Shown: positions 34,020 to 52,863 of the stretch, one piece after another
Layout: the number at the start of each line of letters is the position of its first letter
Position numbering within the stretch: the first letter of the stretch is position 1
Assembly: GCA_000381625.1 (NCBI GenBank)
Contig: KB906767.1
Span: 2,582,629-2,646,628 of the forward strand
Length of the DNA: 64,000 nucleotides
Source of the DNA: Bryobacterales bacterium KBS 96
GTDB taxonomy: Bacteria; Acidobacteriota; Terriglobia; Bryobacterales; Bryobacteraceae
Direction of reading: 5' to 3'
Notes under the pieces: generated by a model
The model's database searches: none
What the model was told of the DNA's origin: nothing
What the model saw: the letters and a program-made list of their open reading frames with translations, nothing else
Program-made: the position numbers and the translations under genes

Positions 34020-34052
34020 TCGTCTTGCAGACTACTATTATTAGAAGTCCTC

Positions 34053-34083
34053 GAAGGGCCACGGTTCCGTGGCCCTTCTTTCA
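34053..34083 (+). terminator. Rho-independent terminator after the YdcH-like gene
   Basis: 12-bp stem GAAGGGCCACGG (34053-34064) with CCGTGGCCCTTC (34067-34078), very short loop, followed by TTTCATTTTC. It closes the rimI-ydcH segment before the long gene-free stretch. Confidence 0.85.
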
Positions 34084-35553
34084 TTTTCTGGGCGGCCGTG
34101 TCCGGCGCGCCTTTCCAGGTTCGCCGTAATATCCTGAGACTGCATACCTGCTAGACTGCACCGCAAGTTGACCCTGCAGGCGGGTCGCATCCCGCCTAGT
34201 TGGCGACGCCTCTACCCGGAGCACCCAAAAGGGCAAGGTGCGGTGAACGACACCTTTCAGCACGCCAACTTATTGGACGTCGTGGACAAATCGAATCCCA
34301 TCTCGACAGATATGTCCAACATTTCGATGCTTCGATGAAGCGTCTTCAGGGCTACGCCGGCGAACCATTCAGCCATCCGCGTATCGGCAACCATATAGAC
34401 TCCGCTATCGAAGTGCAAGAGGCGCCGTAGACCTGGAGATACGAACACGCGTCCCCTGGTGGCCAGAGTGCTCGATCGACCATTGGAGTGCAGCATCGTA
34501 TACATACGTCAATTTCGCCAATTACCAGATTCCGCGGCATTGCTCGGTGGCCCCGCTTTGTCGAGGAACAAGCCGGCCGATAAACTCCTGCGCTAAGTGG
34601 CTCATTCCATTTCGTTGGCACAACAATGTTTTCATACAGTACTACACAATAAGTAACAACGTCGTCGACGCAGAACGCACCGCGCACGTTAGCTTAGTTA
34701 CTCCCCAACGCGCCACTATATAATTTATTTGGCACGCGTCTTCTGTAGGCTGTCTCATAGGTGCCGACATATACACCTTTCCCGGGCCCTCTTGCGACCA
34801 ATGCGATGACTGACCACACATCGACCAGCGACCATAACTACGTTGCGGGCATACGAAACATGTGGGCAATCGAGACGGGCCCCTCTTCCTAAGATTCCAG
34901 CGAGAGAGACAACCCCATCTACATCGTTCCATGCTCAACGTGATCCTGTCCATTCGCTCGTGACTCAAATCAACGGGAGTCCCAGTACTGGCCGCTCCCT
35001 TTCAGCTGGTCCGGTGGTTCTAAGAGTTTCTTAACCGTTTGCGCCACAACGAAAACAACTCCGATATTGCGGTAGCGACAGTAGCGACACTGTCGACTTC
35101 TCATTGCACAATGACGAGGAACTTCCCGTTATTTTTGAATAATAGGCATTCGACAGCAAGGCAACAATCCACTTGCAACACTCGCTTAAATCCCATTCTA
35201 CCGACGGAACAGCGTGTTGGTCGTCGCCTTCAATAACGGTAAGTTAGGTAGCTTTCGCAGACGGACCGAGCGCATTAATCGCAAATACGTCTCTTTTCAG
35301 CTAACATTATTGCGGGGCATGTGCTCCTTTTTAAACAATATCGCCCTCGAGACCATTAGAACTTATAGGCTCTTTCCGGCCGACGGACGGCGGCCGCTCT
35401 GCGGTTCCGGTGCTCCGTCGGCGACGGCAATCAGCCGGTATTGTCACCGGTACTAGAACGCATTCAACCCCGAAGCGATTTGAAACCGATTGACACCTGT
35501 AAGACAACGACGTATTCTGACGAAGCATCCAGTAGAAACTTGAGAAGGCAGTA

Positions 35554-35578
35554 GGCGGTAGTTTATTGCGGTAGCTAT
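35554..35578 (+). promoter_or_regulatory. ops-like element (GGCGGTAG) pair upstream of a NusG paralog
   Basis: GGCGGTAGTTT at 35554-35564 matches the RfaH ops core GGCGGTAGNNT at every fixed base, and a second TGCGGTAGCTA begins at 35567, 14 bp on. A further GCGGTAG lies at 35069. The next gene (35794) encodes a NusG/RfaH-family protein that starts a polysaccharide operon, exactly where ops elements occur in enterobacteria. Whether this distant homolog uses the same signal is not known. Confidence 0.45.
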
Positions 35579-35724
35579 GTTTATAATCGTACTTTTTACG
35601 CTGATTTTACGCTCAGCACCTTCACGTCGTCACTTCTTGCCTATCTATCAGCAGGTGTTCTGCGGTTAGTTCGCTTGCTGTTATAAATAGACAATTGCCC
35701 TCAGGTCTTTAAACACCTACTCTG

Positions 35725-35766
35725 GAGCGGTCCGGTTTCTCTCTCTCGCCCTGAACCGGCTCGCTC
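35725..35766 (+). promoter_or_regulatory. Leader hairpin before the NusG-like gene
   Basis: Inverted repeats GAGCG/CGCTC (35725-35729 and 35762-35766) outside and CCGGTT/AACCGG (35732-35737 and 35754-35759) inside, with a pyrimidine-rich loop, ending ~27 bp before the GTG start. It could pause polymerase or shape the leader; no T-run follows, so it is not an obvious terminator. Confidence 0.4.
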
Positions 35767-35793
35767 TTCTAGACAATATTTCGGAGGGAAAAC

Positions 35794-36411
35794 GTGTGTA
35801 AGCAGGTTAACTCAAATGCTTTTGTGTCTCGATTTCCATTTGAGACCGAGACCTCGACAGGCCTCGAATGGTTTGCAATCCAAGTCAAATGTAGATACGA
35901 AGAAAGAATCGCCTCGGTGCTCCTTGACAAAGGCTTCGAAACACTGGCCGCCACTCTAAAGGTCAAAACCGCCGACGCCGGTTGCGGTAAATCGAGAGCC
36001 CTCTTCCCCGGTTACATTTTTGGCAGATTCGACGCACTCTATCGAATGCCGATTCTTGTCACGCCCGGCGTACAGGCGATTGCCGGGTTTGGAAAACGCC
36101 CCAGCCCCGTCGATGCCAACGAAATTGCCGCAATTCGCAAGGTGCTTGAATCGGGCGAGCCGGTTGAACCATGTACTTATCTCGAGGCCGGCGATCTAGT
36201 TGAAATAACCCGTGGGCCCCTAACGGGCATGCGTGGATTATTGTTCCAGCAGCGATCGTCCTACCGCATAGTCCTTTCAGTGTCGCTGATTCAACGTTCA
36301 ATCAAAGTCGAAGTACCACAAAACGCTGTCATGCCGCTCAGGCGGAGACCCCAAACGGTGATGGCAAATCACTCTCGATCAAGCCCAGCTGCCCTTTCCA
36401 GTGTCTCGTAA
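35794..36411 (+). CDS. NusG-family transcription antitermination protein (UpxY/RfaH/LoaP-like)
   Basis: 205 residues, GTG start with GGAGGGAAAAC upstream. NGN domain: WFAIQVKCRYEERIASVLLDKGFE (~26-49), FPGYIFGRFD (71-80), VTPGVQAIAGFG. KOW motif: EAGDLVEITRGPLTGMRGLLF (~131-151). Specialised NusG paralogs of this kind open capsule/EPS operons and let RNA polymerase read through long gene clusters. Its position as first gene of a ~28-kb polysaccharide locus fits. Its last 11 bases overlap the next gene. Confidence 0.9.
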   Translation: MCKQVNSNAFVSRFPFETETSTGLEWFAIQVKCRYEERIASVLLDKGFETLAATLKVKTADAGCGKSRALFPGYIFGRFDALYRMPILVTPGVQAIAGFGKRPSPVDANEIAAIRKVLESGEPVEPCTYLEAGDLVEITRGPLTGMRGLLFQQRSSYRIVLSVSLIQRSIKVEVPQNAVMPLRRRPQTVMANHSRSSPAALSSVS

Positions 36412-36700
36412 AACGTCAAGAGCCCGTGTTGTCAATTTCCGCCTTACCGACGCGGAATATGAAAGCATCGTATTTGCCTGCCATGCTGAAGGCGTGAGGA
36501 CGGTGTCTGAATTTGCACGCGATATCGTCCTCAGCCGCGCTCGCGGAGAGACCGTAAGCCGCGTCCAGGTAAGTCAGTGGCTTCTTGGCATGAGCATCGA
36601 CTTTGCCAAAATTAAGGCCGATGTCGCCCAGGTGCTTGGCATCCTTGAATCCGACGCGATAAAGAGACCCCTTTCAATATCCGGAAAGATAGAACGATAG
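36401..36700 (+). CDS. Ribbon-helix-helix protein, MobC/NikA-like
   Basis: 99 residues, GTG start inside the NusG-like gene. The pattern RVVNFRLTDAEYESIVFACHAEGVRTVSEFARDIVLSRARG is a ribbon-helix-helix DNA-binding module of the type found in MobC/NikA mobilisation accessory proteins and some repressors. C-terminal helix IDFAKIKADVAQVLGILES may mediate dimer contacts. No relaxase or oriT is nearby, and its tight coupling to the NusG paralog suggests a local regulatory role; this is inference. Confidence 0.68.
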   Translation: MSRKTSRARVVNFRLTDAEYESIVFACHAEGVRTVSEFARDIVLSRARGETVSRVQVSQWLLGMSIDFAKIKADVAQVLGILESDAIKRPLSISGKIER

Positions 36701-36735: not shown

Positions 36736-37731
36736 ATGGCATTACTACAGTCGGCACTTTGTTTGATCATCTTAGCGTCGTGGGCGGGTTCTCCTCTACG
36801 GGGATCCGACGTTGGCTATCAACATGCCTCCAGTCCGAGTGAGAACGCGCTTAATCGGGCGCAACTTTATATCCTTGGGCCAGGAGACGTCGTGGTCATC
36901 AACGGTCTGAATGCTGAGGACCTTGTCGGGAAACCAATGCGTATCGATGCTAAGGGCGAGTTGACTCTTCCTCTGATTGGCACGGTCCATGCGGGCGGCT
37001 TGACCATTCCGCAACTTGAGACATTATTGAACAGCCGCCTCAGCGTGTTTGTGAAGCACCCGCAGTTAATAGTGAGCGTAAGTGAATACCAAAGCCAGCC
37101 CGTATCCGTCGTCGGCGCCGTTAACAATCCGGGCATTCATCAGATTCAAGGCAGAAAGACCATTGTCGAGATGCTTTCGCTTGCGGGAGGACCCCGTGTC
37201 GATGCAGGTTCCGCAGTCACCTTGACGCGCTCTCTGGACCAAGGCCGTCTGCCTCTTCCTAATGAACATCTCGACCCCTCGGGGCATTATTCAACGGCCG
37301 AGATATCGTTACGAGATATTACGTCCGGCGCGCGTCCGGGCGAAAACATCTTCGTGATGCCGCACGATGTACTAGCGGTATCGAGAGCCAGCATGATCTA
37401 CGTAATCGGTGAAGTGAATAAAGCCGGTGGTTTTCCCATTGGCGATGAGAATGCCGTTACCGTTGTCCAAGCCCTTTCCATGGCGCAAGGATGTGAACAT
37501 ACGGCGGATATGAGACACGCGCGCATTATCCGTAATTCTCAAATCCCCAATAAACGCGAAGAACGCGTCTGTGACCTACAAAAGATACTAAATGGAAAAA
37601 GCCCGGACATTACCTTACAAGCAGACGATATTTTATATGTTCCGGGAAGCACCGGCAAAAAGATCGCGCTTAAAGCACTCGAGACTGCGATTACGACAGG
37701 ATCGGGGATAGCAATCTGGGGCATTCGTTAG
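36736..37731 (+). CDS. Polysaccharide biosynthesis/export protein, Wza-like
   Basis: 331 residues. Leader LLQSALCLIILASWAGSPLRG. Poly_export (PES) domain YILGPGDVVVINGLNAEDLVGKPMRIDAKGELTLPLIGTVHAGGLTIPQLE, then two SLBB-like units: QPVSVVGAVNNPGIHQIQGRKTIVEMLSLAGG and IYVIGEVNKAGGFPIGDENAVTVVQALSMAQG, ending TLQADDILYVPG. Outer-membrane exporter subunit for capsule or EPS. No lipobox is clear. Gene follows the RHH protein by 35 bp. Confidence 0.92.
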   Translation: MALLQSALCLIILASWAGSPLRGSDVGYQHASSPSENALNRAQLYILGPGDVVVINGLNAEDLVGKPMRIDAKGELTLPLIGTVHAGGLTIPQLETLLNSRLSVFVKHPQLIVSVSEYQSQPVSVVGAVNNPGIHQIQGRKTIVEMLSLAGGPRVDAGSAVTLTRSLDQGRLPLPNEHLDPSGHYSTAEISLRDITSGARPGENIFVMPHDVLAVSRASMIYVIGEVNKAGGFPIGDENAVTVVQALSMAQGCEHTADMRHARIIRNSQIPNKREERVCDLQKILNGKSPDITLQADDILYVPGSTGKKIALKALETAITTGSGIAIWGIR

Positions 37732-37786
37732 GCTAACGCGGAGTTGTTTGCGCCGTTACCGTGGCAATCGCCAGCTAAACGAGACA

Positions 37787-40048
37787 ATGAATTCCTTTCA
37801 CTACTTGGACGATCCAAGACGAGATGTACCACCTCCGCTATTAGCACCGGCGGCTAGCAACCGATATTCTCCGGAAGCGGACCGATTCGCCAACGTCGAG
37901 GCAGACGATTCAGGCAAGCTGCTTGAATACGTATTAACTCTTTACTGGAATAAGGGCTTGTTGCTGGCGTTTGCGCTGATAGGCATGGCTATAACACTGT
38001 GCATCAGCATTCCGCAAAAGCCAATCTATCGCGCTCAAGTCACTGTTGAAATTGAAGACCCGAGTGAGAATTTTCTAAACAAGGGATTTGATAACGTCAC
38101 GCCAAATAGCACCGACGCGGCGGAAACCTATTTTCAGACTCAAATTCGGTTGCTTCGTAGCGATTCGTTACTCCAAAGGGTTGCGGCCAAGCTGAACTTA
38201 CATGCTAAAGGGAATGCCGGCCAAACATCCAAGTGGCGCGGCTGGTTCGGCCTTGCTCCGAACACCCCTCTTCCGGAGTCCGACAGAGTGATTCGGCAAA
38301 TGAGTCAGAATCTGACTGTTCGCGTGTCCGGCCTCACCCACGTTGTCGAAGTGCTGTATGATTCTCCCGATCCAGCTCTCGCCGCCGATGTTGCGAACAC
38401 AGTTGTAACGGAATTCATTGACAAAAGCCAGGAAGTGCGATGGCGTTCCGCTCAACGCGCGAGCGAATGGTTGACCCGTCAGTTGGCCGACATGCGGGTG
38501 AAGCTGGAAAAGTCCGACGCTCAATTGCAGAGCATGGCTAGAGGTTCGGGATTAGTCATCGATTCAGGGAAGGACAGCATCGAGGACGATAAATTGCGTA
38601 CCCTCGAAGACGAGCTATTAAAGGCGAAGGCAGATCGCCTCAGCCGGCAGTCCAAGCTGGAATTGGTCGGACAGGTCAGCGTCGAGTCGCTGCCGGAGAT
38701 CTTAGACGACCCTACTATCCGCGACTACAACCTGAAGCTGACCGACCTGCATCGGCAGTTGGCTGAGTTGAGTTCAAGCCTGACACCGGCTCACTATCGA
38801 GTGCAGGAAGTAACGCAGCAGATTGCCGAGATGCGCAAAGCCCTCGATCGCGCCCGAACCAACTTGCTCACTCGGATGCAGAATGAATACGAAACATCAC
38901 AACGCCACGTTGCCCTACTCGAGGCCGCCTGCGCCGAGCAATTGAAACAGGTCGCCAAGGCTTCTCATAAAGCCGTGGAATACAATATGATGAAGCACGA
39001 GGTCGATACCAGCCGGCAACTCTATGAAATATTGTTGCAACGTGTGAAAGAGGCCGGGGTGGCTTCGGCCATGCGCTCAAGCAATGTGCTCGTAGTGGAT
39101 CCGGCACGGCGCCCGGTGCTGCCCTACAAGCCTAATCTGCCCTTCAATGCGGCTATTGGATTTGCCGGAGGCCTTTTCATCGGCATCGGCTTTGTGTTTT
39201 TTCGAAAACAAGCCAATCATAGCGTTCGCGAGCCGGGAGAACTTTCCGTGCAACTCAACTTGCCGGATCTAGGAGCGATCCCAGATATCCGGCAGCCGTT
39301 TAGGGCTCGTGGCGCACTACGGGGCGGGTCCGAACTGACCCTGGCGAGTCCACGTGGAACTGAGGAGATTGATATTGATCCTCGCGGCCGCAAGCCGTCT
39401 TTACTTGCAGAATCTTTCCGAGCCACTCTTCCATCTATTCTTTTCGGTCAGCCGAATACACTGCGGCCTCGGGTGATAGTCATCACCAGTCCTAACCCTG
39501 GCGAGGGGAAGACAACCGTGGCCACTAATTTAGCGGTCGCCATTGCCGAAATTACCCGCCGGGTATTGGTGGTTGACGCCGACCTAAGGAAACATCAGCT
39601 ACACAACGTGTTTCGAACTCACAATGACTTCGGCCTTGCGAATCTGCTTAGCGTGAGAGAGCCTCTGAAAGTTTCTGATATCGAAGCCGCCGTTCAAGAT
39701 ACCGGCTTGCCTGGTCTCTTCCTTCTGACCAGCGGGAAGAGCAATGACAATGATTTCTCCAGCCTCTTTTACTCGCGGCGACTACCGGAACTGCTACGAC
39801 TTCTTCGTCAAGAATTCGACACGGTTATCATCGATAGTCCGCCGATACTGCAGGTTCCAGACGGTCGTCTCCTGGGCCGCTTTGCCGATGGCATGATTCT
39901 CGTAATGCGGGCAGGTAAGACTGCGCGTGAAAGCGCGATGCTTGCCCGCCAGCGCCTGGCCGATGATGGCAGCCCCGTTCTCGGGACTATTTTGAATAGC
40001 TGGGAGCCATCAAGAATGCATCGTTACACTTATGCCGCCAGTAAGTAA
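37787..40048 (+). CDS. Chain-length determinant fused to BY-type tyrosine kinase (Wzc/GumC-like)
   Basis: About 753 residues from ATG 37787 (TTG 37748, with GGAG upstream, also possible). First helix (KGLLLAFALIGMAITLCISI), a Wzz domain (YRAQVTVEIEDPSENFL), long periplasmic coiled coil (e.g. KLRTLEDELLKAKADRLSRQ), second helix (NAAIGFAGGLFIGIGFVFF), then kinase: Walker A SPNPGEGKTT (~residue 567), Walker A' VVDADLRK, Walker B TVIIDSPP. The tail has only RYTYAASK, two tyrosines rather than a rich cluster. Controls polymer length and export together with the Wza protein encoded upstream. Confidence 0.92.
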   Translation: MNSFHYLDDPRRDVPPPLLAPAASNRYSPEADRFANVEADDSGKLLEYVLTLYWNKGLLLAFALIGMAITLCISIPQKPIYRAQVTVEIEDPSENFLNKGFDNVTPNSTDAAETYFQTQIRLLRSDSLLQRVAAKLNLHAKGNAGQTSKWRGWFGLAPNTPLPESDRVIRQMSQNLTVRVSGLTHVVEVLYDSPDPALAADVANTVVTEFIDKSQEVRWRSAQRASEWLTRQLADMRVKLEKSDAQLQSMARGSGLVIDSGKDSIEDDKLRTLEDELLKAKADRLSRQSKLELVGQVSVESLPEILDDPTIRDYNLKLTDLHRQLAELSSSLTPAHYRVQEVTQQIAEMRKALDRARTNLLTRMQNEYETSQRHVALLEAACAEQLKQVAKASHKAVEYNMMKHEVDTSRQLYEILLQRVKEAGVASAMRSSNVLVVDPARRPVLPYKPNLPFNAAIGFAGGLFIGIGFVFFRKQANHSVREPGELSVQLNLPDLGAIPDIRQPFRARGALRGGSELTLASPRGTEEIDIDPRGRKPSLLAESFRATLPSILFGQPNTLRPRVIVITSPNPGEGKTTVATNLAVAIAEITRRVLVVDADLRKHQLHNVFRTHNDFGLANLLSVREPLKVSDIEAAVQDTGLPGLFLLTSGKSNDNDFSSLFYSRRLPELLRLLRQEFDTVIIDSPPILQVPDGRLLGRFADGMILVMRAGKTARESAMLARQRLADDGSPVLGTILNSWEPSRMHRYTYAASK

Positions 40049-40064
40049 GGCCGGTGAAGAAGCG

Positions 40065-41408
40065 ATGCCTGAGCAGCCGGACATCGATCTAACATACCTA
40101 GGGCGCTCGTCGCTACGCGGCGATTTCCTTTGGACGTTGATCGGAAATGGGGTTTATGCGGCTTCACAATGGGTTGTGATTGTGCTGCTTGCAAAGTGGA
40201 GTCGCCCAGAAATCGTGGGCGCCTACTCTTTTGCTATCGCAGTCGCCACACCATTGATTACGTTTGCTTCGTTTCAACTGCGCGCCGCGCAGGTGACGGA
40301 TGTGCGAGGAGAGCATCACTTTTCCGATTACTTAGGATTTCGATTACTCAGCATGGCAGTCGCCATGGTTGTTCTCACGGCGCTCTGCTTTGGGTTGCAT
40401 TACTCGTCTTCCAGAACCGGGCTCGTGGAGGCAGTGGGCCTATCGCTTATGGTGGAAGCGGTTAGTGACGTCTATTATGGGCGCATGCAGGCGCATAATC
40501 GGATGGATAGTATTGCTAAATCGATGATCGTTCGAGGCGTTCTTTCCAGTTTGGCGCTAGTGGCGGTCATGATACTCACCGCGAGTATTTTGCTCGGCGT
40601 CCTCGCAATGACGTTCGTTCGGGTGCTTGTTCTGTTGTTCTTCGATGCTCGCGTGCGCTTCACGCTGTATCCCGTCCCTGTGCGCCCGGTCGATGTGGCA
40701 ACCCGCCCGCGCTGGGCCCTATTAACGCAAAAGACGCTGCTCAAGACCACGCTGCCGCTCGGTCTGGTCTCTGTTTTGGTGGCTTTGAACACTAGTATCC
40801 CTCGCTATTTCATCGAGTGGTCCTCAGGCTCGCGGGAACTCGGCATCTTTGCGGCACTCTGCTTCTTTCAGTCCAGCGGCAATATGGTGGTTGGAGCGAT
40901 GGGACAGGCTGCATTCGGGCGCTTGGCGGTTAGCTACGCGCGCCATGATATGCGCGGATTCTTTCCGCTTGTGCTGCGACTTCTTGTTATCGGAGGGGCA
41001 CTCGGCGTGACGGGTGTCCTAGTCGCGGTGTTCGCGGGGAGGCAAGTCTTGGAGCTGCTGTTCCGGCACGAGTATGCGGCGCGCGCCGATCTCCTTATAT
41101 ACTTGATGGTCGCCGCGGGCCTCGGTTACTGTTGTCAATTTATCGGCAGTGCTGTCACCGCCGCCCGCATATTCAGACCGCAGATAGCGTTGTTTTTGAT
41201 CGTCGCCTCTAGCTTGACTGGATTCTGCTACCTATTCGTGCCGGGACATGGAGCGGGTGGAGCCATCACCGCGATTGTGGGCTCGACATTGGTACAGATT
41301 AGCGGTTTCACTTTCATTCTTCTGGCGTCCGCAAGGAGGCGCCGAAAAAGCCACGGAGCTTTCTTCAAATCGGCCGATGGACTGGCGGTGTCCGGGTTTC
41401 CTACTTAA
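40065..41408 (+). CDS. Oligosaccharide flippase, Wzx-like
   Basis: About 447 residues from ATG 40065 (GAAGAAG upstream; ATG 40032 is an in-frame alternative overlapping the kinase gene). Twelve or so membrane helices, opening FLWTLIGNGVYAASQWVVIVLLAKWSRPEIVGAYSFA, a MOP-superfamily start typical of polysaccharide flippases. Moves lipid-linked repeat units across the inner membrane. With the O-antigen ligase/polymerase gene at 57601, it implies a Wzx/Wzy-dependent pathway. Confidence 0.88.
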   Translation: MPEQPDIDLTYLGRSSLRGDFLWTLIGNGVYAASQWVVIVLLAKWSRPEIVGAYSFAIAVATPLITFASFQLRAAQVTDVRGEHHFSDYLGFRLLSMAVAMVVLTALCFGLHYSSSRTGLVEAVGLSLMVEAVSDVYYGRMQAHNRMDSIAKSMIVRGVLSSLALVAVMILTASILLGVLAMTFVRVLVLLFFDARVRFTLYPVPVRPVDVATRPRWALLTQKTLLKTTLPLGLVSVLVALNTSIPRYFIEWSSGSRELGIFAALCFFQSSGNMVVGAMGQAAFGRLAVSYARHDMRGFFPLVLRLLVIGGALGVTGVLVAVFAGRQVLELLFRHEYAARADLLIYLMVAAGLGYCCQFIGSAVTAARIFRPQIALFLIVASSLTGFCYLFVPGHGAGGAITAIVGSTLVQISGFTFILLASARRRRKSHGAFFKSADGLAVSGFPT

Positions 41409-41429
41409 TACTTTTGTAAAGGTAACTAA

Positions 41430-42206
41430 GTGCCTTTTCTACTTGGAAGCGGCCCAGAGTATCTGATCCGTTTTGATGATATCTGCCCAACAATGTGCTG
41501 GGCTACATGGAACGAGATCGAGCGTATTCTGATAGCCAATGACGTGCGGCCAATACTCGCGGTTGTCCCTGACAATAGAGATCCGGAGTTGAAGAGAGAA
41601 CCGCCTAAGTCCAATTTTTGGGATCGAGTTCGGGATTGGCAGGAACGCGGCTGGACAATTGCCCTTCATGGATATCAACATCTCTATGTCACACGCTCAC
41701 GCGGACTTATCGGATTAAATCAATACAGTGAATTTGCGGGTCTTGACTATGGTGAACAATACAGCAAGCTTGCAGCCGGCTTGCAAATTCTAGATGTCGA
41801 GCGCGTTCATCCGCAATTGTGGGTAGCACCCGCGCATACGTTTGATTCCCAGACTCTAAAAGCTCTTCGCGCATTAGCGATTACGGATATCAGCGATGGT
41901 TTCGGCCTTTATCCGCACACAGACAGCGATGGCACATACTGGATTCCGCAGCAGCTAGGCCGATTTCATTTTTTCCCAACCGGACTTTGGACTGTTTGCA
42001 TCCACATCGACGATCCCGTTCACGCCGACACACGAATGTTTGCCCGTCATATAGATAAGTTCCGCCCTTTCATTACAGATGTTTCCGAAGTCAAACGGCG
42101 TTATCCAGTGAACCGTTGTTACGCATTGAACAGAGCTTGGGCCACCGCGTTCCGGTGGACGAAAGGACTGCGGCAACACGCATTTCGCGGCGCGGGAGTT
42201 TCCTGA
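41430..42206 (+). CDS. DUF2334/polysaccharide-deacetylase-like protein
   Basis: 258 residues, GTG start. Has YLIRFDDICPTM (the Asp-Asp of NodB motif 1), ILAVVPDN, WTIALHGYQH (motif 2 His-x-x-x-His type), LWVAPAHTFDSQTLKAL and the tail HIDDPVHADTR. This fits the DUF2334 branch of the carbohydrate esterase 4 fold, with metal-dependent de-N-acetylation or related hydrolysis as the likely activity. No signal peptide, so it may act in the cytoplasm on sugar precursors. Overlaps nothing; next deacetylase starts 2 bp later. Confidence 0.82.
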   Translation: MPFLLGSGPEYLIRFDDICPTMCWATWNEIERILIANDVRPILAVVPDNRDPELKREPPKSNFWDRVRDWQERGWTIALHGYQHLYVTRSRGLIGLNQYSEFAGLDYGEQYSKLAAGLQILDVERVHPQLWVAPAHTFDSQTLKALRALAITDISDGFGLYPHTDSDGTYWIPQQLGRFHFFPTGLWTVCIHIDDPVHADTRMFARHIDKFRPFITDVSEVKRRYPVNRCYALNRAWATAFRWTKGLRQHAFRGAGVS

Positions 42207-42208
42207 CC

Positions 42209-43276
42209 ATGTCACATTCCCAACAACGGACTTCTGACGATGGCGGCCGTCGAGGCGCGCTCGTTATTTCACTGGACTTTGAATTGCATTGGGGAGTTTA
42301 CGACCATTGTCCTGCCGATTCGCCATACCGCGCCAACCTACTTGGAGCTCGCCGCGCCATACCCCGATTGCTCGATCTCTTTGAGGAGTTCGGAGTCGCG
42401 GCCACTTGGGCGACGGTCGGCTTTCTGTTCGCCGAATCTCGCGACGAATTGCTACAATTCGCGCCGGAGCGGCGTCCTTCATATCGGAATGAGGCCCTTA
42501 ATCCTTACGCCGCCGAAATTGGACATTCGGAGGCGGACGATCCGCTGCACTTTGCCCCTAGCCTGATCGCCGAAATTCGACGCCGGCCGTTTCAGGAAAT
42601 CGGTTGCCACACCTTCGCTCATTACTATTGTCTGGAATCCGGCGGCGGCATTGGCGCGTTTAGAGCAGACATCGAGAGCGCCGTACGGCTGGCACGCCGA
42701 CGCGATGTCCATCTCACTTCTCTCGTGTTTCCCAGAAACCAGATCACAGCCGAGGCTCTAGCGGTTCTGCCGTCGCTTGGGTTCAAAGCCTATCGTGGTG
42801 GTGAACAAGGATGGATGTATAACGTGCGGCCAGGATCGCGCAATCGGCTTCATCGCCGGGTCGGGCGATTTCTTGATCAATATGGCGCCTCTATTTCTCG
42901 CTTAGTTGACTGGGAGGAACTTGACGACGATTCCAAACTCTCGAACGTCCGCGGTAGTCTATTTCTGCGACCTTTCCTGCCATCCCAACCAGCACTCAAC
43001 GCGTTTCGCTTTTCCCGCATCGCTCGCTGCATGCGACAAGCAGCGGCAACCGGAAGACTTTTTCACCTTTGGTGGCATCCCCACAATTTCGGTTCCAATA
43101 CGGAACTTAACCTTGCCGAGTTACGCCGCTTGTTGATGGTATTCGCGGAATGCCGAAATCGCTTTGGGTTTCGGTCCATATCGATGGCCGGAGCGGCTTC
43201 CGCGGCACATGGCGGACCGCACCCGCTTGAAACGGCTTTCAGCTCGACTATGGCCGGAGTGCCTTCCCTAACGTAA
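42209..43276 (+). CDS. Polysaccharide deacetylase (NodB, CE4) family protein
   Basis: 355 residues from ATG 42209. Motifs: VISLDFELHWGVYD (Asp), VAATWATVGFLF, IGCHTFAHYYC (His-x-x-x-His), LVFPRNQITAEAL and a late HLWWHPHNFGSN. Long insert typical of EPS-cluster deacetylases. It is the second deacetylase in a row; they may act on different sugars. No signal peptide is evident. The next glycosyltransferase starts 1 bp after the stop. Confidence 0.88.
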   Translation: MSHSQQRTSDDGGRRGALVISLDFELHWGVYDHCPADSPYRANLLGARRAIPRLLDLFEEFGVAATWATVGFLFAESRDELLQFAPERRPSYRNEALNPYAAEIGHSEADDPLHFAPSLIAEIRRRPFQEIGCHTFAHYYCLESGGGIGAFRADIESAVRLARRRDVHLTSLVFPRNQITAEALAVLPSLGFKAYRGGEQGWMYNVRPGSRNRLHRRVGRFLDQYGASISRLVDWEELDDDSKLSNVRGSLFLRPFLPSQPALNAFRFSRIARCMRQAAATGRLFHLWWHPHNFGSNTELNLAELRRLLMVFAECRNRFGFRSISMAGAASAAHGGPHPLETAFSSTMAGVPSLT

Positions 43277-43277
43277 G

Positions 43278-44411
43278 ATGATCCGCGTCGTTCACGTCAT
43301 CACCGGTCTCGCCGCCGATGGAGCCGAGCGGATGATGTTTAATCTGGTCACTCGCATGGATAGCCAGCGGTTCACTAATGAAGTGGTTTCCCTGACCACC
43401 CTGGGCGATCTTGGAGCCGGATTGCAGGCAGCCGGGATTCCCGTACGCGCCGTAGGTCTTTCAAGGAATCCGGCCAGCTTTGCCGCATTGCTACGCATGA
43501 GGAAGTTTTTTCGCCAATCCCGCCCGGACGTGGTGCAGACCTGGATGTATCATGCGGATCTGGTAGGCGGTGTGGTCGCGCAGTTGGCTGGCGTTCATCG
43601 AGTGTTTTGGGGTATTCATCATTCGGATCTCGATTTTGAAACCAACAAACTGCTGACTTTGGCGGCGGCGAAGACCTGTGCACTCCTTTCCGCCTCCGTG
43701 CCATTGCGCATCGTGTGCTGCTCTCAAGGCGCTCGCCAGGCTCATACGGCGTTCGGATATCGAAGCGCAAAGACGGACTACATTCCGAACGGATTCGACA
43801 CCGATCTTTTCCAGCCCGATGCGCAGGCCCGCAAGGCGATGCGATATGAACTGGGCGCCAACGAAGAGGATCAGCTAATCGGGCTAGCCGGGCGCTTTCA
43901 TCCCCATAAGGATCACGTGAACTTTTTGGCGGCGGCCCAAGCCGTTCTCTCCCGGCGCCAGCGGGCACTGTTTGTCCTTTGTGGGCGCGACGTTCACTGG
44001 CGCAACTCAGCTTTTACTTCGCTACTCCGCCGGTTTGAACTGCGTGATCGAGTCCGCTTGCTTGACGCCATTCCAGACCCTCAAAGATTCTTTGCCGCCA
44101 TGGACATTGTGGTCTCTTCTTCGCGCACAGAAGCCTTTCCGCTCGCCATCGGAGAGAGCATGGCATGCGGAGTTCCATGCGTTGTTACCGATGTTGGCGA
44201 TTCCGCGCTGCTGGTAGGCGCAACCGGATTTACTGTTCCTGCCGGGGATAGCGCCGCGCTTGCCAGCGGCATCGAGAAACTGCTCGCCGGTGGGCAGGTC
44301 TTACGGAATGAGATGGGCGCGGCGGCACGCCGTCGTATCCAACAACAGTTCAGCCTCGATTCTGTCGTCACTCGTTACCAGGAACTTTACACACGAGCGA
44401 TGCTCAATTAG
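43278..44411 (+). CDS. Glycosyltransferase family 4
   Basis: 377 residues. Opens RVVHVITGLAADGAERMMFNLVTRM, typical of WcaC/GT4 entries that bind acceptor; C-terminal half has GLAGRFHPHKDHVNFLAAA and SSRTEAFPLAIGESMACGVPCVVTDVGDSALLV with the conserved acidic pair. Adds one sugar of the repeat unit. Follows the deacetylase at 1-bp spacing. Donor not predictable. Confidence 0.9.
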   Translation: MIRVVHVITGLAADGAERMMFNLVTRMDSQRFTNEVVSLTTLGDLGAGLQAAGIPVRAVGLSRNPASFAALLRMRKFFRQSRPDVVQTWMYHADLVGGVVAQLAGVHRVFWGIHHSDLDFETNKLLTLAAAKTCALLSASVPLRIVCCSQGARQAHTAFGYRSAKTDYIPNGFDTDLFQPDAQARKAMRYELGANEEDQLIGLAGRFHPHKDHVNFLAAAQAVLSRRQRALFVLCGRDVHWRNSAFTSLLRRFELRDRVRLLDAIPDPQRFFAAMDIVVSSSRTEAFPLAIGESMACGVPCVVTDVGDSALLVGATGFTVPAGDSAALASGIEKLLAGGQVLRNEMGAAARRRIQQQFSLDSVVTRYQELYTRAMLN

Positions 44412-44452
44412 CTCAGTCCATTTACCCATTTACATTTTTTAAAAGGAGTAAC

Positions 44453-46273
44453 ATGCCGTCGCGCCCTAAGTTGCTCTTCGTGGACAACTCGATCGATACT
44501 TTCTATTCTTATCGGATGCCCCTGGCGGTAGCAGCAAGCCGGGCTGGTTTCGAAATTCATGTGGCCACTCCGCCAGGTCGTTGCGAAAAGGTGATCCGAG
44601 ATGCTGGCTTCACATTTCATCCTTTGCTCATGACTCGCAGGGGACTGGGTATCGGAGAGTTGAGTTGCCTTGTACACCTCTATTCGCTGTACAGGCACAT
44701 TAAACCGGATCTGGTTCATCATCTTCGCCTGAAACCAGTGCTGTATGGCGGTTTAGCGGCGTACGCGGCCCGCGTTCCCGCCGAGGTCAGCATGCCCACG
44801 GGACTCGGTCATGTCTTTACCGCACAGACTCGAAAGGCCCTAATCTTGCGCGCGATTACGCTGGCAGGCTGTCGTGTTGCCTTTCGGCACAAGAATCTAA
44901 GAGTCATTTTCCAAAATCCGGACGATCTTGCGGTGTTCGTCGACTCGAAGGTGCTGCTCAAGGAGAAGAGTGTTCTCATTCGCGGATCGGGCGTCGACAT
45001 CTCGCAATTTGTGCTGGCGCCCGAGCCCACCGGCCGGCCGGTGGTTATGCTCGCCGCGCGCATGCTCTGGGACAAGGGTGTGCTCGAATTCGTTGAGGTT
45101 GCCAAAACGCTTAAAGGCAGAGGGAGCGACGCACGTTTTGTTCTGGTTGGCGATACCGACCCTGGTAATCCCACGGCTATCTCCGCCGCTCAACTTCAAG
45201 CCTGGCACGATACAGGGCTAATCGAATGGTGGGGCTATCGCGAGGACATGCGCCAGGTGCTCGAGCAAGCAAACATCGTATGCCTACCCTCATATCGCGA
45301 AGGAGTCCCGAAAGTTCTCATTGAAGCTGCCGCCGCTGGACGCGCCATTGTCACCACGGATGTTCCCGGCTGCCGGGAAGTTGTTCGTCACGGCCAGAAC
45401 GGCCTGCTGGTGCCGCCGCGCGATTCCAAGCTACTTTCCGAAGCTATCGCATTTCTTTTGGCGAGTCCCAGTACACGCGCTCGCATGAGCCGGCGCGGCA
45501 GACATACCGCCGTCGCGAATTTTTCTCTTGATCGGGTTATCACCGAAACCATCGAAACCTACCATGATGTCCTTGGTCGTGTTCCCGCCAAGACTGGCGA
45601 TCGTGGTTATCGAGTGGCCAAACGGCTACTCGACATGTCTGTTTCCGGTCTCGGCCTTCTCGCCGCGAGTCCTCTCTTCGCAGTGATCGGTCTGGCAATC
45701 AAAGGGACCTCGCCTGGGCCCGTGTTTTATCGCGGCGCCCGCACCGGCCGCAACAACACAATCTTCCATATGTGGAAATTCCGCACCATGGTTGTCGACG
45801 CCGAGCGACTCGGCGGATCCGCTACAGCCAGCGATGACACCCGCATCACTCGGGCCGGTCGATTTCTCCGGCGCTACAAGCTCGATGAACTCCCGCAGCT
45901 AATCAATGTCCTCGTGGGTGAAATGAGTTTGGTCGGCCCCAGGCCCGAAGTACGGAAATACACCGATCTCCTCGCGGGCGAGCAGCGCATGATACTCAAT
46001 CTTCGGCCAGGTATTACCGATTGGGCGTCCATTTGGAATTCGAATGAAGGCGAAGTTCTCGCTGGCAGCTCGGATCCGGAGGCCGCCTATGAAGAATTGA
46101 TTCTACCTACAAAAATTGCCTTGCAGCTCAAATACTGCCACGAACACAGTTTCCGAACTGACTTCAATATTCTTTTCGAAACCGCACGAAAATTATTGCG
46201 GCCACAACACGTGCCGGGCGAACTCCGCTGCGTCACTAAAGTACTTCAATATAAAGATTTGGTAAAACAATGA
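44453..46273 (+). CDS. Fusion of GT4 glycosyltransferase and polyprenyl-phosphate sugar-1-phosphate transferase
   Basis: 606 residues, AAAAGGAGTAAC before ATG. Residues 1-~380 are a GT4 of the WbpY/PglA-like type: SMPTGLGHVFTA, LAARMLWDKGVLEFVEVAK, CLPSYREGVPKVLIEAAAAGRAIVTTDVPG. From ~385 a monotopic phosphoglycosyltransferase follows: KRLLDMSVSGLGLLAASPLF (re-entrant helix), FYRGARTGRNNTIFHMWKFRTM, RRYKLDELPQLINVLVGEMSLVGPRPEV with the catalytic Asp-Glu, and LRPGITDWASIWNSNE. It would prime the lipid carrier and add the second sugar. Overlaps the aminotransferase gene (ATGA). Confidence 0.92.
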   Translation: MPSRPKLLFVDNSIDTFYSYRMPLAVAASRAGFEIHVATPPGRCEKVIRDAGFTFHPLLMTRRGLGIGELSCLVHLYSLYRHIKPDLVHHLRLKPVLYGGLAAYAARVPAEVSMPTGLGHVFTAQTRKALILRAITLAGCRVAFRHKNLRVIFQNPDDLAVFVDSKVLLKEKSVLIRGSGVDISQFVLAPEPTGRPVVMLAARMLWDKGVLEFVEVAKTLKGRGSDARFVLVGDTDPGNPTAISAAQLQAWHDTGLIEWWGYREDMRQVLEQANIVCLPSYREGVPKVLIEAAAAGRAIVTTDVPGCREVVRHGQNGLLVPPRDSKLLSEAIAFLLASPSTRARMSRRGRHTAVANFSLDRVITETIETYHDVLGRVPAKTGDRGYRVAKRLLDMSVSGLGLLAASPLFAVIGLAIKGTSPGPVFYRGARTGRNNTIFHMWKFRTMVVDAERLGGSATASDDTRITRAGRFLRRYKLDELPQLINVLVGEMSLVGPRPEVRKYTDLLAGEQRMILNLRPGITDWASIWNSNEGEVLAGSSDPEAAYEELILPTKIALQLKYCHEHSFRTDFNILFETARKLLRPQHVPGELRCVTKVLQYKDLVKQ

Positions 46274-47469
46274 GGACCCTTCTTGAGTCGATCGAAGCCC
46301 CAGCCCATTGGGGCGGTGCACCTGCCTTCGCGGAACGTTTCCGGTTCATCTCTCCTCTCCTTCCGCCTCTGGACGAGGTGCTAGAGGACTTTCGCGCCGC
46401 GTATGACGCCGGAGTCATTACTAATGCCGCCTGCGTGCGGCGTTTCGAGGAGCAATCGGCCGCCTATCTCGGCGCGCGCGACTGCGTTGGCGTTTCTAGC
46501 TGCACTAGCGGCCTCACCTTAGTGATGCGCGCGCTGGAACTCGCAGGAGAGGTCATTGTTCCCAGCTTTACCTTCTTCGCGACCGCTCACGCCATTCGCT
46601 GGAACGGACTCACGCCTGTTCTGGCCGATTGCGATCGCGAAACCTGGAACATCGACCCCGCCGATGTGGAGCGCAAAATTACGGCGCGTACGTCGGCCAT
46701 CGTTGCCGTACATATGTACGGCAACCCGGCCAATGTGGACGCGCTAAGCAATCTCGCTCGCAAACACAACCTCAAGCTAATCTTCGACGCCGCGCATGCT
46801 TTCGGCAGCCAGCGGCTTGGTTTACCTGTTGGCCAGTTCGGCGACGCGGAAGTATTTTCCCTGTCTCCTACCAAGCTACTCGTCGCCGGCGAGGGCGGCC
46901 TGGTTGCCACGGCCGATCGGGATTTGGCTCGGGCGGTCCGTCTCATGCGCAACTACGGAGACGACGGCTCTTACGATCCTCAGTTTCTTGGCCAGAATGC
47001 CCGTTTGGGTGAATTCAATGCCGCTCTTGGTCTGCACGGACTTCCACTTGTGAATAAAAAAGTGCAGCGCCGCAACCAAATCGCCCGCATGTACGTAGAT
47101 GGACTTACCGGGTTGCCAGGCGTTACCTTTCAAAAGGTGGAAGCCGGGAACCGAAGCACCTACAAAGACTTTTCAATCCACGTTGATGGCAGCTTATTCG
47201 GATGCACGCGTGACCAGCTCGCACAAGCTCTGCTAACTGAAAATATCGAAACAAAGAAATACTTCTATCCGCCGCTGCATAAGCAGACGCTGTATCGGCA
47301 ATTCGACAGGACAGCGTTGCCAAATACCAATTACGTCGCCGACAATGTTCTGAGCCTTCCCATTTACGAAACACTGCCCGATTCCACGATCGCGTGCATC
47401 ATAGACAGCATTAAACGTATTCAGGGTTTCGTTGCTCATCGCTCGTTTGAAGCCAATGCGAAATCGTAG
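46270..47469 (+). CDS. DegT/DnrJ/EryC1/StrS-type sugar aminotransferase
   Basis: 399 residues. PLP enzyme: GVSSCTSGLTLVMRAL, VIVPSFTFFATAHAI, IVAVHMYGNPAN, LIFDAAHAFGSQ (Asp binding the pyridine nitrogen), SLSPTKLLVAGEGGLV with catalytic Lys202, and RNYGDDGSYDPQFLGQNARLGEFNAALG. Transfers an amino group to a keto sugar nucleotide. Overlaps the upstream fusion gene by ATGA. With the epimerase next, it likely makes an amino sugar that the deacetylases or the amino-acid cassette then modify (inference). Confidence 0.93.
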   Translation: MRTLLESIEAPAHWGGAPAFAERFRFISPLLPPLDEVLEDFRAAYDAGVITNAACVRRFEEQSAAYLGARDCVGVSSCTSGLTLVMRALELAGEVIVPSFTFFATAHAIRWNGLTPVLADCDRETWNIDPADVERKITARTSAIVAVHMYGNPANVDALSNLARKHNLKLIFDAAHAFGSQRLGLPVGQFGDAEVFSLSPTKLLVAGEGGLVATADRDLARAVRLMRNYGDDGSYDPQFLGQNARLGEFNAALGLHGLPLVNKKVQRRNQIARMYVDGLTGLPGVTFQKVEAGNRSTYKDFSIHVDGSLFGCTRDQLAQALLTENIETKKYFYPPLHKQTLYRQFDRTALPNTNYVADNVLSLPIYETLPDSTIACIIDSIKRIQGFVAHRSFEANAKS

Positions 47470-47510
47470 CCACACTCTCCGCTGTTCTCTCCACAAGTCA
47501 TAGGTGATTT

Positions 47511-49061
47511 ATGTTTCCATCGCTCGAAAAGCTCTCTCGCCCCAATATCTTCTCCCGCGTCGTTGCCGATTTTCTGATGGTTCACACCAGTCTCGTTGCG
47601 GCATTGGTCGCATCCTGGATTCGGGGGACGCACGCCGCTTCGGAAGCTGTTCTGTTCGCCGAAGCACGCGAAGCCGTCGATCAATATCTGCACCTGTTCC
47701 TGCCGTTATCGCTCATCTTCCCGGCAGCCTTTCTGCTCAGCGGAATGTATCGTGACCACACGGGTTGGTCGCTCGGCCGTCGAGCTGTCGCTCTTTTGTG
47801 CGGACTGGCCGCGGGTCTGATTGCGTTTACCTCCATCTCGCTCGCCCTACTTCCCACGAGCAGCCTCGGCTCCAAAAGTCTGATCATTTTTTGCGCCGTG
47901 ATGGCGATTACCTTGTTTTCCGTTCGTAGCGGTGAGTGGGCCCTGTTCGCCACAGTCACAAGACGCGCTACCCGCCAGAATCGACTTCACTCTGAACGCC
48001 CAGTGCTCGTGGTGGGCGGCGCCGGCTACATCGGCTCCATGCTAGTTGCCGAACTGCTTCGTGCCGGACGCAAAGTGCGCGTGCTTGATAGTTTGCTTTA
48101 TGGCGACGGAGCGCTCCGAAACGTTCTCCGGGACCCCAACTTCGAACTCATCGTCGGCGATTGCCGTAATCTCCAGACTGCAATTCGAGCCGTAAGCGGC
48201 GTGGATTCCATCGTGCATCTGGCCGCTATCGTGGGCGATCCCGCCTGCGAACAGGATCGTCAAGCTGCGCTCGAAACTAATTACGCTGCCACTCGCATGC
48301 TGGTTGAGGTTGCCAAGGGCCAGGGAATATCGAGATTCTTGTTTGCCTCCAGTTGCAGCGTCTATGGCGCGTCTGACGATCTGATGACCGAAACGTCCCA
48401 AGCCCACCCGGTTTCCCTGTACGGTCAGACTAAGATCGATTCCGAGAAGGCCTTGCTTGATGCTTGTGACAAGCTCTTTCGTCCTACGATTTTGCGCCTA
48501 GCAACTGTATTCGGACTGTCACCCCGTCCGCGCTTTGACCTGGTAGTGAATCTACTAACGGCAAAAGCAGCGGCTGGTCACCCGATCACGATCTTTAACG
48601 GCAATCAATGGCGGCCCTTCATTCACGTTAGCGATGTCGTTCGCGGCTTCATCATGGCCCTCCATGCTCCGATCGAGCAGGTCGGTGGAGAGGTATTCAA
48701 TCTCGGAGACAGCAAACTGAATTACACGCTAACCGATGTCGCTGCTACTATACTGGAACTGTTTCCAAGCGCAACTGTCGAAACGGCGCCAAACAGCGAC
48801 TCCCGCAATTACCGCGTCTGTTTCGAGAAAATCCGAACTCGATTGGGATTTGAATGCAGCAAGAACCTGGCCTACGGCGTGAGCGAAATCGATGCCGCCT
48901 TAACGTCACGATCCATTCTGGACTACAGCAGCTACCAATACAGTAATCAAAAGTTTCTGTCTATCGCGGGTTGCCCCACCAGCGAGGATGAACTTGACGA
49001 GAAGGTGATGGCGGCGTTTTCCGAATCTCCCAAGCTTACCGCCGTAGCCGCCAGTCTCTAA
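47511..49061 (+). CDS. Membrane-anchored NAD-dependent sugar epimerase/dehydratase
   Basis: 516 residues. The first ~150 residues have about four membrane helices (e.g. LFLPLSLIFPAAFLL, ALLCGLAAGLIAFTSISLALL, LIIFCAVMAITLFSV) reminiscent of the N-terminus of PglF/WbpM proteins. From 164 a single extended-SDR domain follows: VLVVGGAGYIGSMLVAELL (169-176 loop), IVHLAAIVGDP, FASSCSVYG and YGQTK (Tyr304-Lys308). The catalytic Tyr-x-x-x-Lys is kept, unlike some membrane dehydratases. The pairing of the membrane part with a soluble-type epimerase is unusual. GalE-like or 4,6-dehydratase activity is inferred. Confidence 0.85.
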   Translation: MFPSLEKLSRPNIFSRVVADFLMVHTSLVAALVASWIRGTHAASEAVLFAEAREAVDQYLHLFLPLSLIFPAAFLLSGMYRDHTGWSLGRRAVALLCGLAAGLIAFTSISLALLPTSSLGSKSLIIFCAVMAITLFSVRSGEWALFATVTRRATRQNRLHSERPVLVVGGAGYIGSMLVAELLRAGRKVRVLDSLLYGDGALRNVLRDPNFELIVGDCRNLQTAIRAVSGVDSIVHLAAIVGDPACEQDRQAALETNYAATRMLVEVAKGQGISRFLFASSCSVYGASDDLMTETSQAHPVSLYGQTKIDSEKALLDACDKLFRPTILRLATVFGLSPRPRFDLVVNLLTAKAAAGHPITIFNGNQWRPFIHVSDVVRGFIMALHAPIEQVGGEVFNLGDSKLNYTLTDVAATILELFPSATVETAPNSDSRNYRVCFEKIRTRLGFECSKNLAYGVSEIDAALTSRSILDYSSYQYSNQKFLSIAGCPTSEDELDEKVMAAFSESPKLTAVAASL

Positions 49062-49097
49062 AATTGGACGCCGCTGATTTACTTGGCGATAACTCTT

Positions 49098-50156
49098 CTA
49101 CATATCTACCGTCGGAAATCGATAAGCATAATCAGTGTCCAGATAACTAAGTTGTTCAAGCTCCTGGACCGCATCTTCGGAACTTCGAGTCAAGATGTAC
49201 AACGGCCGTCTGGACGTCGACCGGTAAAAGCCATTCCGTTTAGCAAGTTCCAGAAGATCCACATCCAGGCGCGATGCCAGCAAGGAAATAAGCCATCCAC
49301 CACTGTCGCGTATATGACGGATGGTCTTTACTATCGCTACTTCCAGCATTCTATAGTTACTACGACAGGGCAGCACGGAAATCCTCCAGAAGCGTCGATC
49401 GGTTACTGGATGCCAGAATAGAACTGCGCCAATCGGCTCCCCGCCGCAGAATACGAGGCAAGCCCCTCCGGTGATTGAAGGACACCGATCCAGTAGCCAT
49501 CGCAAGTATTGCGAATCATAAGCCGGAACATGAGCATCGACAGCCCTGGTGGTAAGTGACTCGCCAAAGGCGGCCGGCAAGGATGCGCCAAACTGAACAG
49601 CTATCGGCTCTTTGCTTTTCGGTTCTCTTATTGGCAGCCTAATGTTATTGACAGCTGATACCGATGGGATTACGTTTACCGTGGTTGCTTTCCGCAATGC
49701 GCATACCGCTCCGCCGATACGCACGGGCTTGTATAATTCGAGACCGGCCGTTGGCACGGTTACTCGGGAAAGCCGCCCCATGATTGCCTTTGTCATCTCT
49801 CCGCCGCCTAGTGAATAGATCAGTGGATATGCTTTTAAGCTATGTTGAATCAGCATAACCCCGAGTGGCCCGCTCGCATCAAGAGCGCGATACCAGTCGC
49901 AACTCCAAGCTGCATCGACCGCTTTTCCGTTGCGCATTACCGTAAACGGAATCAAGCCAATGAATGATAAAAGTCTGCCACGGTCATCGACGCAGGCGAA
50001 GCCGCGTTCTCTGCTTCGGTTAAAGTCACTATCGTAATATTTCCAGTCGATAATGGCTGCATCGTGCCCATGCCCGGAAAGAAACGCGTGGAGCGCACTT
50101 ACAGGAATCTTGCTCAGCGGCTCAATAACGATAGACACAACGATAGTGTAATGCAT
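49098..50156 (-). CDS. GNAT-fold acyltransferase-like protein, antisense to the cluster
   Basis: About 352 residues from ATG 50156 (upstream starts overlap the divergent gene). Two GNAT-like halves: KYYDSDFNRSRERGFACVDD, IPFTVMRNGKAVDAAWSCDW, SLGGGEMTKAIMGRLSRV, and later YDSQYLRWLLDRCPSITGG, EPIGAVLFWHPVTDRRF, and ELAKRNGFYRSTSRRPLYIL. This resembles FemAB-like or EPS-cluster GNAT proteins that add amino-acyl or acyl groups to sugars. The only minus-strand gene in the locus; shares a ~30-bp divergent promoter region with the flavin monooxygenase gene. Confidence 0.72.
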   Translation of the reverse strand: MHYTIVVSIVIEPLSKIPVSALHAFLSGHGHDAAIIDWKYYDSDFNRSRERGFACVDDRGRLLSFIGLIPFTVMRNGKAVDAAWSCDWYRALDASGPLGVMLIQHSLKAYPLIYSLGGGEMTKAIMGRLSRVTVPTAGLELYKPVRIGGAVCALRKATTVNVIPSVSAVNNIRLPIREPKSKEPIAVQFGASLPAAFGESLTTRAVDAHVPAYDSQYLRWLLDRCPSITGGACLVFCGGEPIGAVLFWHPVTDRRFWRISVLPCRSNYRMLEVAIVKTIRHIRDSGGWLISLLASRLDVDLLELAKRNGFYRSTSRRPLYILTRSSEDAVQELEQLSYLDTDYAYRFPTVDM

Positions 50157-50186
50157 CGCCCAGATCTTGCATGAGGTGCTTAATAT

Positions 50187-51254
50187 ATGTCTTCTAAAAA
50201 TCAACAACAAGAGCAGTCGCCGGCAATTTCACCGGATTTTGGCGACATCAAGGTCTTTGCGACCAGCCCGCAATCGCTCGACTCGGTTCCCGAAACATAT
50301 CTGCGGAAGGTCATCGAGGTAGCCCAGTGGTCGGAATCGGCGGGCTGCACCGGAACTCTGGTCTACACGGACAACTCCATTGTGGATCCATGGCTGGTCG
50401 CTCAAGCCATTCTCGCGAATACCCAAACTCTTGTGCCGCTAGTGGCTGTCCAGCCGCTGTACCTGCACCCTTATGCGGCCGCGAAAATGGTCACTTCGCT
50501 TGCTTATCTTTACGGTAGGCGGGTGATTCTCAACATGGTCGCAGGCGGCTTTAAAAACGATCTTCTCTCTCTTGGCGATCAAACTCCGCACGACAGGCGG
50601 TACGACCGGCTTATCGAATATGTCAAGATCATCCAATTGTTACTGGGCAGCGATTTCCCAGTCACTTATGATGGCGACTTCTACCATTTGACGAACGCCG
50701 TGCTTAGACCCAATCTTGCTCCAGGGCTTCAGCCGGAGTTTTTCATGTCTGGCTCGTCGGAGGCCGGTCTCGCCGCAGCAACCGCAACCGGCGCCGTGGC
50801 CATCAAATATCCCGAACCGCCAGAGCAGCTTGCGGAAGCGGCGCCGCCCGTACAATCGGACTCTGGCGTGCGTGTTGGCATCATTGCCCGCCGTACGACC
50901 GACGAAGCTTGGGACGTCGCTGAGGAACGCTTTCCGTTCGATCGCAAGGGACAGATTGCGCATGAGATGGCGATGCGCGTCTCCGATTCCTCTTGGCACA
51001 AAAGGCTGTCTGTGCTCTCGAAGGAGAACGCCGTCGGCGGCACGTACTGGCTCGGCCCCTTTGAGGTGTCAAAATCTAACTGCCCCTACTTGGTCGGCAC
51101 TTACAGTGCTGTCGCTCAAGACCTGCGGCGCTACATTCAGCTCGGATATCGAACGTTTATCCTTGACATTCCGCCCTCAGCGGAGGAACTGGGACATATT
51201 AGAACGGTTTTCGAGGAGGCCGCCGCTTTTGCAAGCTGCGATGTACACGCATGA
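50187..51254 (+). CDS. LLM class flavin-dependent monooxygenase
   Basis: 355 residues. Luciferase-like TIM barrel: KVFATSPQSLDSVPETYLRKVIEVAQWSESAGCTGTLVYTDN, VQPLYLHPYAAAKMVTSLAYLYGRRVILNMVAGGF, YDRLIEYVKIIQLLLG, FFMSGSSEAGLAAA. Pattern close to SsuD/MsnO8-type enzymes that use reduced flavin and oxygen. ATGA overlap with the adenylation gene, so the two are coupled. In this cassette it may hydroxylate or oxidatively cleave a carrier-bound amino acid (inference). No flavin reductase is adjacent. Confidence 0.88.
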   Translation: MSSKNQQQEQSPAISPDFGDIKVFATSPQSLDSVPETYLRKVIEVAQWSESAGCTGTLVYTDNSIVDPWLVAQAILANTQTLVPLVAVQPLYLHPYAAAKMVTSLAYLYGRRVILNMVAGGFKNDLLSLGDQTPHDRRYDRLIEYVKIIQLLLGSDFPVTYDGDFYHLTNAVLRPNLAPGLQPEFFMSGSSEAGLAAATATGAVAIKYPEPPEQLAEAAPPVQSDSGVRVGIIARRTTDEAWDVAEERFPFDRKGQIAHEMAMRVSDSSWHKRLSVLSKENAVGGTYWLGPFEVSKSNCPYLVGTYSAVAQDLRRYIQLGYRTFILDIPPSAEELGHIRTVFEEAAAFASCDVHA

Positions 51255-52858: not shown

Positions 52859-52863
52859 AACTC

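Follow-up and report, generated by a model that had tools for sequence, protein, structure and literature searches.

The gene for a specialised NusG paralog (NusG-SP) at the head of a polysaccharide (EPS) locus of Bryobacterales bacterium KBS 96 raises the question of whether its leader carries a signal that recruits such a protein. RfaH has been characterised as largely confined to Proteobacteria, and the targeting of other NusG paralogs is largely open (PMC7593976, PMC12691694); no open-access literature was found on Acidobacteria in connection with RfaH/ops or NusG antitermination. A first-pass annotation of the 64,000-nucleotide stretch of DNA analysed here (the window) had proposed an ops-type signal for this acidobacterial paralog. 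The proposal survived the attempts to refute it, but the copy of the motif on which it relied and the size and diversity of the element had to be revised; the site is now judged, with a probability of roughly 0.7 based on comparative sequence data, to belong to a family of NusG-SP recruitment elements built like E. coli ops.

Table 1. Features of the window, and sites found before EPS genes elsewhere by the covariance model R1
Feature	Position or locus	Strand	Remarks
Third GCGGTAG	35069-35075	+	415 bp upstream of promoter, outside predicted transcript
σ70-type promoter, TTGACA-N17-TATTCT	35490-35518	+	TTGACA 35490-35495, TATTCT 35513-35518; conserved in L014/L095 and L015
GGCGGTAGTTT copy of the first-pass annotation	35554-35564	+	Probably not functional: not conserved, no stem predicted
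ops-like element TGCGGTAGCTATGTTT	35567-35582	+	T-GC(GGTA)GC-TA-TG-TTT; probable functional copy, from ortholog conservation and fold
NusG-SP, 205 aa, NGN + KOW	35794-36411	+	PF02357, 43.5 bits
Small NikA-like ribbon-helix-helix (RHH) protein	36401-36700	+	PF21983, below cut-off
Wza-like polysaccharide export protein	36736-37731	+	PF02563, SLBB
Wzc-like chain-length/tyrosine kinase	37748-40048	+	Wzz, GNVR, AAA_31
Remaining EPS locus	40032-58905	+	Flippase, deacetylases, glycosyltransferases, sugar transferase, aminotransferase, epimerase, carbamoyltransferase, Wzy-type ligase
R1 sites before Bac_transf	L204, L205, L209		
R1 sites before Poly_export	L206, L207, L210		L210 less certain: EPS gene 631 nt away
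R1 site before polysaccharide deacetylase	L208		Less certain: antisense ORF overlaps

The downstream gene was correctly described as a NusG specialist heading a polysaccharide locus, being a PF02357 gene followed by EPS genes (Table 1). The system had also been called UpxY/LoaP-like; both models do match the gene product, but with scores under the curated cut-offs (UpxY model NF033644, 61 against 100 bits; LoaP model NF033641, 42.3 against 125 bits), and the RfaH model TIGR01955 likewise gave 63.1 bits, under its equivalog cut-off of 144.5 bits. At the positions through which RfaH contacts ops, most NusG-SP have K or R at 10, positions 20 and 23 are variable and 73 is mostly P; residue E48 of RfaH is not conserved. 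The C-terminal domain (CTD) was predicted by AlphaFold2 (pLDDT 82.5) as a β-strand KOW, by a method that cannot exclude a fold switch. The NikA-like RHH gene overlaps the NusG-SP gene or comes immediately after it in the window, in L004, in L207 (2290-2607) and elsewhere, and among 120 loci 29 have a related ORF downstream of NusG-SP, in many cases right beside it; by analogy with UpxZ, the RHH protein could be a partner or antagonist of NusG-SP. Within the EPS locus, positions 44453-46273 encode a 606-aa protein in which a GT4 glycosyltransferase is joined to a bacterial sugar transferase, and positions 50187-54899 encode a luciferase-like monooxygenase, an NRPS-like adenylation enzyme and a NodU-type carbamoyltransferase.

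Upstream of NusG-SP, 1.77 kb without a convincing gene (34020-35793), lying mostly upstream of the promoter, extend from a DUF465 gene to the NusG-SP gene. The motif GGCGGTAGTTT was found where the annotation had placed it, and GCGGTAG starts at 35555, 35568 and 35069 on the forward strand. The second of these copies exists as claimed, at a spacing of 13 rather than 14 bp, and the third adjoins the inverted repeat CGACAGT..ACTGTCG, in agreement with the hairpin described there; its distance upstream of the promoter probably places it outside the leader transcript. By counting alone, the motif is unremarkable in the window (GCGGTAG, 11 against 6.4 ± 2.5 expected; GGCGGTAGNNT, 1 against 0.36 expected) and not raised in frequency in the whole 6.7-Mb host genome (GGCGGTAGNNT, 33 against 121 for a reversed control).

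Comparison with the genomic background, which the annotation had suggested as a check, thus gave an ordinary count but a placement before NusG-SP genes far above controls. The NusG family of the host genome comprises five genes, one housekeeping and four specialised, and GGCGGTAGNNT lies just upstream on the coding strand in three of the four NusG-SP genes, namely that of the window, L003/L094 (where the motif reads GGCGGTAGCCTGTCCCCC) and L004 (where it overlaps the gene's own start codon). With the window excluded, two of the three remaining NusG-SP genes carry the motif, for which the estimated chance at genome density is ∼2e-6; the placement of the motif is not chance. Both of these genes carry full elements. 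The fourth, L002/L239 (5499614 in the host genome), lacks an element, lies in no evident EPS context and is possibly an orphan or trans-acting paralog. Other GGCGGTAGCNTG sites of the host genome lie within ORFs (L218, L219, L221, L222) or, in L220, between genes and before a non-EPS gene. An element-like match of 23.8 bits with a GTCA loop was also seen on the minus strand of L213 (3722-3753; 4774721 in the host genome), ∼1.1 kb before the gene for an 802-aa glycosyltransferase and overlapping a 320-aa ORF, which makes it a possible trans site.

Orthologs with 73% (L014/L095) and 61% (L015) protein identity were used to compare the copies. The sequence TGCGGTAGCT (35567-35576) is identical in the window and both orthologs within a poorly conserved leader, so that the conservation upstream of orthologous loci on which the proposal had been staked was indeed observed, for a copy other than the one favoured. 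At the place of the 35554 copy the orthologs read GAGTGGCAGTTT and AAAGTGTATTT, and folding of single-stranded DNA gave a 2-bp hairpin for the 35567 copy and no stem for the 35554 copy. Since only the 35567 copy is conserved and folds, and that at 35069 lies upstream of the promoter, 35567-35582 was taken as the element in place of the annotation's key copy at 35554. It lies ∼43 nt after the predicted start of transcription and 226 nt ahead of the NusG-SP start codon. The ops pattern G1G2C3G4G5T6A7G8 with T11G12 is matched by many relatives and, within the host genome, by paralog L094 (GGCGGTAGCCTG); of the window copies, the 35554 copy has T11 and A12, and the 35567 copy has T1 and T12G13 instead of T11G12. 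The C3:G8 mini-hairpin with closing G4..A7 is found in the 35567 copy. The window element lacks the upstream GKGAC box of most relatives and was not listed by R1, a covariance model of the element; on the evidence of ortholog conservation and position, it is a divergent family member.

The promoter shares with the orthologs the sequence TTGACACCTGTAAnACAA...CGTATTCT. Comparable promoters at other loci end a median of 53 nt upstream of the hairpin, and a promoter score of at least 7.5 was reached by 13 of 56 loci and 1 of 112 controls. Where a σ70 promoter is clear it ends ∼50 nt before the element, which is therefore predicted to be transcribed, as ops is. The promoter spacer is itself conserved (TTGACnnnTGTAnnn..CGTAT) in the window (35490-35518), L014, L015, L107, L127 and L035, beyond what a promoter needs, which suggests a repressor operator. 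An Rfam search over 33.9-36.0 kb gave nothing close to gathering scores, and no similarity was found between the leader and plasmid DNA.

Comparison of 119 NusG-SP loci, drawn from Acidobacteriota and further phyla, revealed a composite leader element, TGKGAC-N7-GC[GNNA/GNA]GC-N1-2-TGYCC, usually located at ∼-40 to -130 relative to the NGN tryptophan. Most members have the GKGAC box upstream, and a consensus-pause TG follows the hairpin; conservation peaks in the hairpin and not in the boxes. A composite score of at least 12.5 was reached in 44 of 119 forward upstream regions, whereas the reverse strand gave 2, shuffled sequence 1.7 and downstream regions 4 of 116. As the score had been designed on these loci, it was applied unchanged to 78 new NusG-SP loci, yielding 30 forward, 1 reverse and 1 downstream; the loci in such counts share ancestry and are not independent events. 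The two reverse-strand sites of the first set, in L024 and L076, look real, the former preceding a divergent Wza gene and the latter a small RHH gene and then a flippase. No upstream element is detectable at about half of the NusG-SP loci, L002 of the host genome among them. One NusG-SP clade (L027, L098, L104, L105) lacks a strong upstream element; in the L098 and L105 genomes, GGTA elements stand ahead of sugar-transferase genes at other places. A long RNA stem formed by GGGAC and GTCC was considered and rejected because this outer pairing does not covary.

Within the hairpin, the stem of two GC/GC pairs and the G..A closing are nearly fixed, and the one or two bases of the loop interior vary. 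When the flanks were fixed and the middle 8-mer was left free, the first set of loci gave 20 forward matches, 18 with GC-GN(N)A-GC and a further one (L114) with an AAA triloop, and 4 reverse matches, none with a hairpin. The held-out set gave 16 forward matches, 14 with a hairpin, and none in reverse; one held-out exception, ACGGAAGT, has a compensatory A:T pair for G:C. Loops include GGTA, GGCA, GGAA, GGGA, GATA, GTGA, GTAA, GAAA, GAGA and GCGA, and the triloops GAA and GGA. In ops the C3:G8 pair has an architectural role, base reading through a hydrogen-bond network is confined to G5 and T6, and TG at 11-12 makes the pause; the pause flanks were proposed to be constant and the centre to vary for different regulators (Zuber 2018, PMC5995543). 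In the acidobacterial elements the variation falls exactly on the two positions, 5 and 6, that E. coli RfaH reads. Agreement of loop class with the NusG-SP tree is partial: it changes 17 times, and shuffled labels gave 27.5 changes (minimum 23). Loop class shows a weak association with NGN residues by a statistic that ignores phylogeny; the top column is ops-contact position T68, and taken together the contact residues rank only modestly. A link between the loops and NGN residues is only suggestive. We tentatively propose a code in which coexisting NusG paralogs of Acidobacteriota and Omnitrophota might be addressed to their own cis and trans EPS operons by the bases and length of the loop on a fixed non-template scaffold, the GKGAC box providing a second contact.

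R1, whose E-values are rough, was also run over 31 genomes, where the next gene that could be recognised after each of the 14 matches of at least 25.9 bits was a NusG-SP or EPS gene. Seven of the matches, all outside the training set, precede EPS genes rather than NusG-SP (Table 1). Matches below ∼25 bits fall mostly within coding sequence. A scan of the whole phylum gave few matches beyond the window's order, mostly in coding sequence and probably due to chance; two look real, L225 (wza) and L233 (sugar transferase). In Omnitrophota, a related element (TGTAACCGAAGGGGCGAAGCTCTGTCC) was found at five of five loci, 40-60 nt after the NusG-SP stop codon and between NusG-SP and the next EPS gene.

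Several other explanations bear on these observations. The element might act as nascent RNA, NusG-SP binding an RNA mini-hairpin as LoaP does and not non-template DNA; LoaP, which binds a UNCG RNA hairpin in target leaders, is a precedent (PMC12691694), RNA loops of the GNRA and GNA types are stable, and the element lies within the transcribed leader. This seems rather unlikely given a stem of only 2-3 bp, an outer helix without covariation, a core nearly identical to ops plus TG, which is a DNA-read pause signal, the lack of a UNCG loop and a LoaP model score far below cut-off. It is more doubtful that the family is real elsewhere but the motif in the window is due to chance, its NusG-SP using neither 35554 nor 35567: the near-background GCGGTAG counts and the absence of the window element from the R1 list would agree with this, but three diverged orthologs share TGCGGTAGCT and the promoter within leaders that are otherwise not conserved, and two further NusG-SP of the host genome have full elements. 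A promoter or transcription-factor operator, with GGGAC-N17-GTCC serving as an ECF-type promoter, is very improbable; the GGGAC-to-GTC spacing may resemble that of ECF promoters, but σ70 promoters ∼50 nt upstream in the best cases, the window included, contradict such a promoter, which was rejected, the hairpin rather than the boxes is most conserved, and the Omnitrophota element lies between NusG-SP and the next gene.

A cis- and trans-acting, ops-type NusG-SP recruitment element with diversified loops is, at the probability given at the outset, the best reading; counting against it, the base contacts H20, R23 and R73 of RfaH are not kept in the aligned NusG-SP. RNA polymerase would pause at the TG, the non-template strand would form the mini-hairpin inside the bubble, and the NGN domain of NusG-SP would read the loop and remain on the polymerase, suppressing Rho or polarity along the long EPS operon by processive antitermination. 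Elements in cis would provide positive autoregulation, those heading EPS operons that have no NusG-SP beside them would provide control in trans, as with RfaH, and different loops could be addresses for different paralogs. In soil Acidobacteria, an ops-like mini-hairpin signal that opens sugar-coat operons probably loads a specialised NusG that sustains RNA polymerase. If so, the presence of diversified ops-like elements in both Acidobacteriota and Omnitrophota would make recruitment through a bubble mini-hairpin a general principle, the acidobacterial loops would be a natural data set for testing the proposal of constant flanks and a variable centre, and the element would give a sequence handle on NusG-SP regulons in uncultured phyla.

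Among known systems, LoaP (dfn/mln) is a NusG-SP that likewise uses a recruitment hairpin in the leaders of long biosynthetic operons, but that hairpin is RNA with a UNCG loop and a longer stem, in contrast to the GNNA or GNA loops on 2-3 bp stems found here, and LoaP occurs mostly in Gram-positive bacteria. As with Bacteroides UpxY, the NusG-SP gene heads its own polysaccharide operon and several paralogs occur per genome, whereas no UpxZ was seen beside the window gene; a recruitment element comparable to that proposed here was not found described for UpxY in the open-access literature. JUMPstart, a longer conserved leader element of enterobacterial polysaccharide operons that contains ops, resembles the composite element in its organisation, but the sequence upstream of ops differs from the acidobacterial one and is not known to include a GKGAC box. 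The likeness to E. coli ops itself lies in the GGCGGTAGC core, the C3:G8 stem with G4..A7 closing, the TG pause dinucleotide, the leader position at the heads of polysaccharide operons and the sites in trans. The acidobacterial elements differ in lying mostly in cis to a NusG-SP gene, in varying loop positions 5 and 6, in their triloops and in the extra upstream GKGAC box. Since by model score, by contact residues and by a CTD predicted as β rather than as an α-hairpin the NusG-SP is not RfaH, our claim is that this system probably works like RfaH and ops, and not that it is a member of that family.
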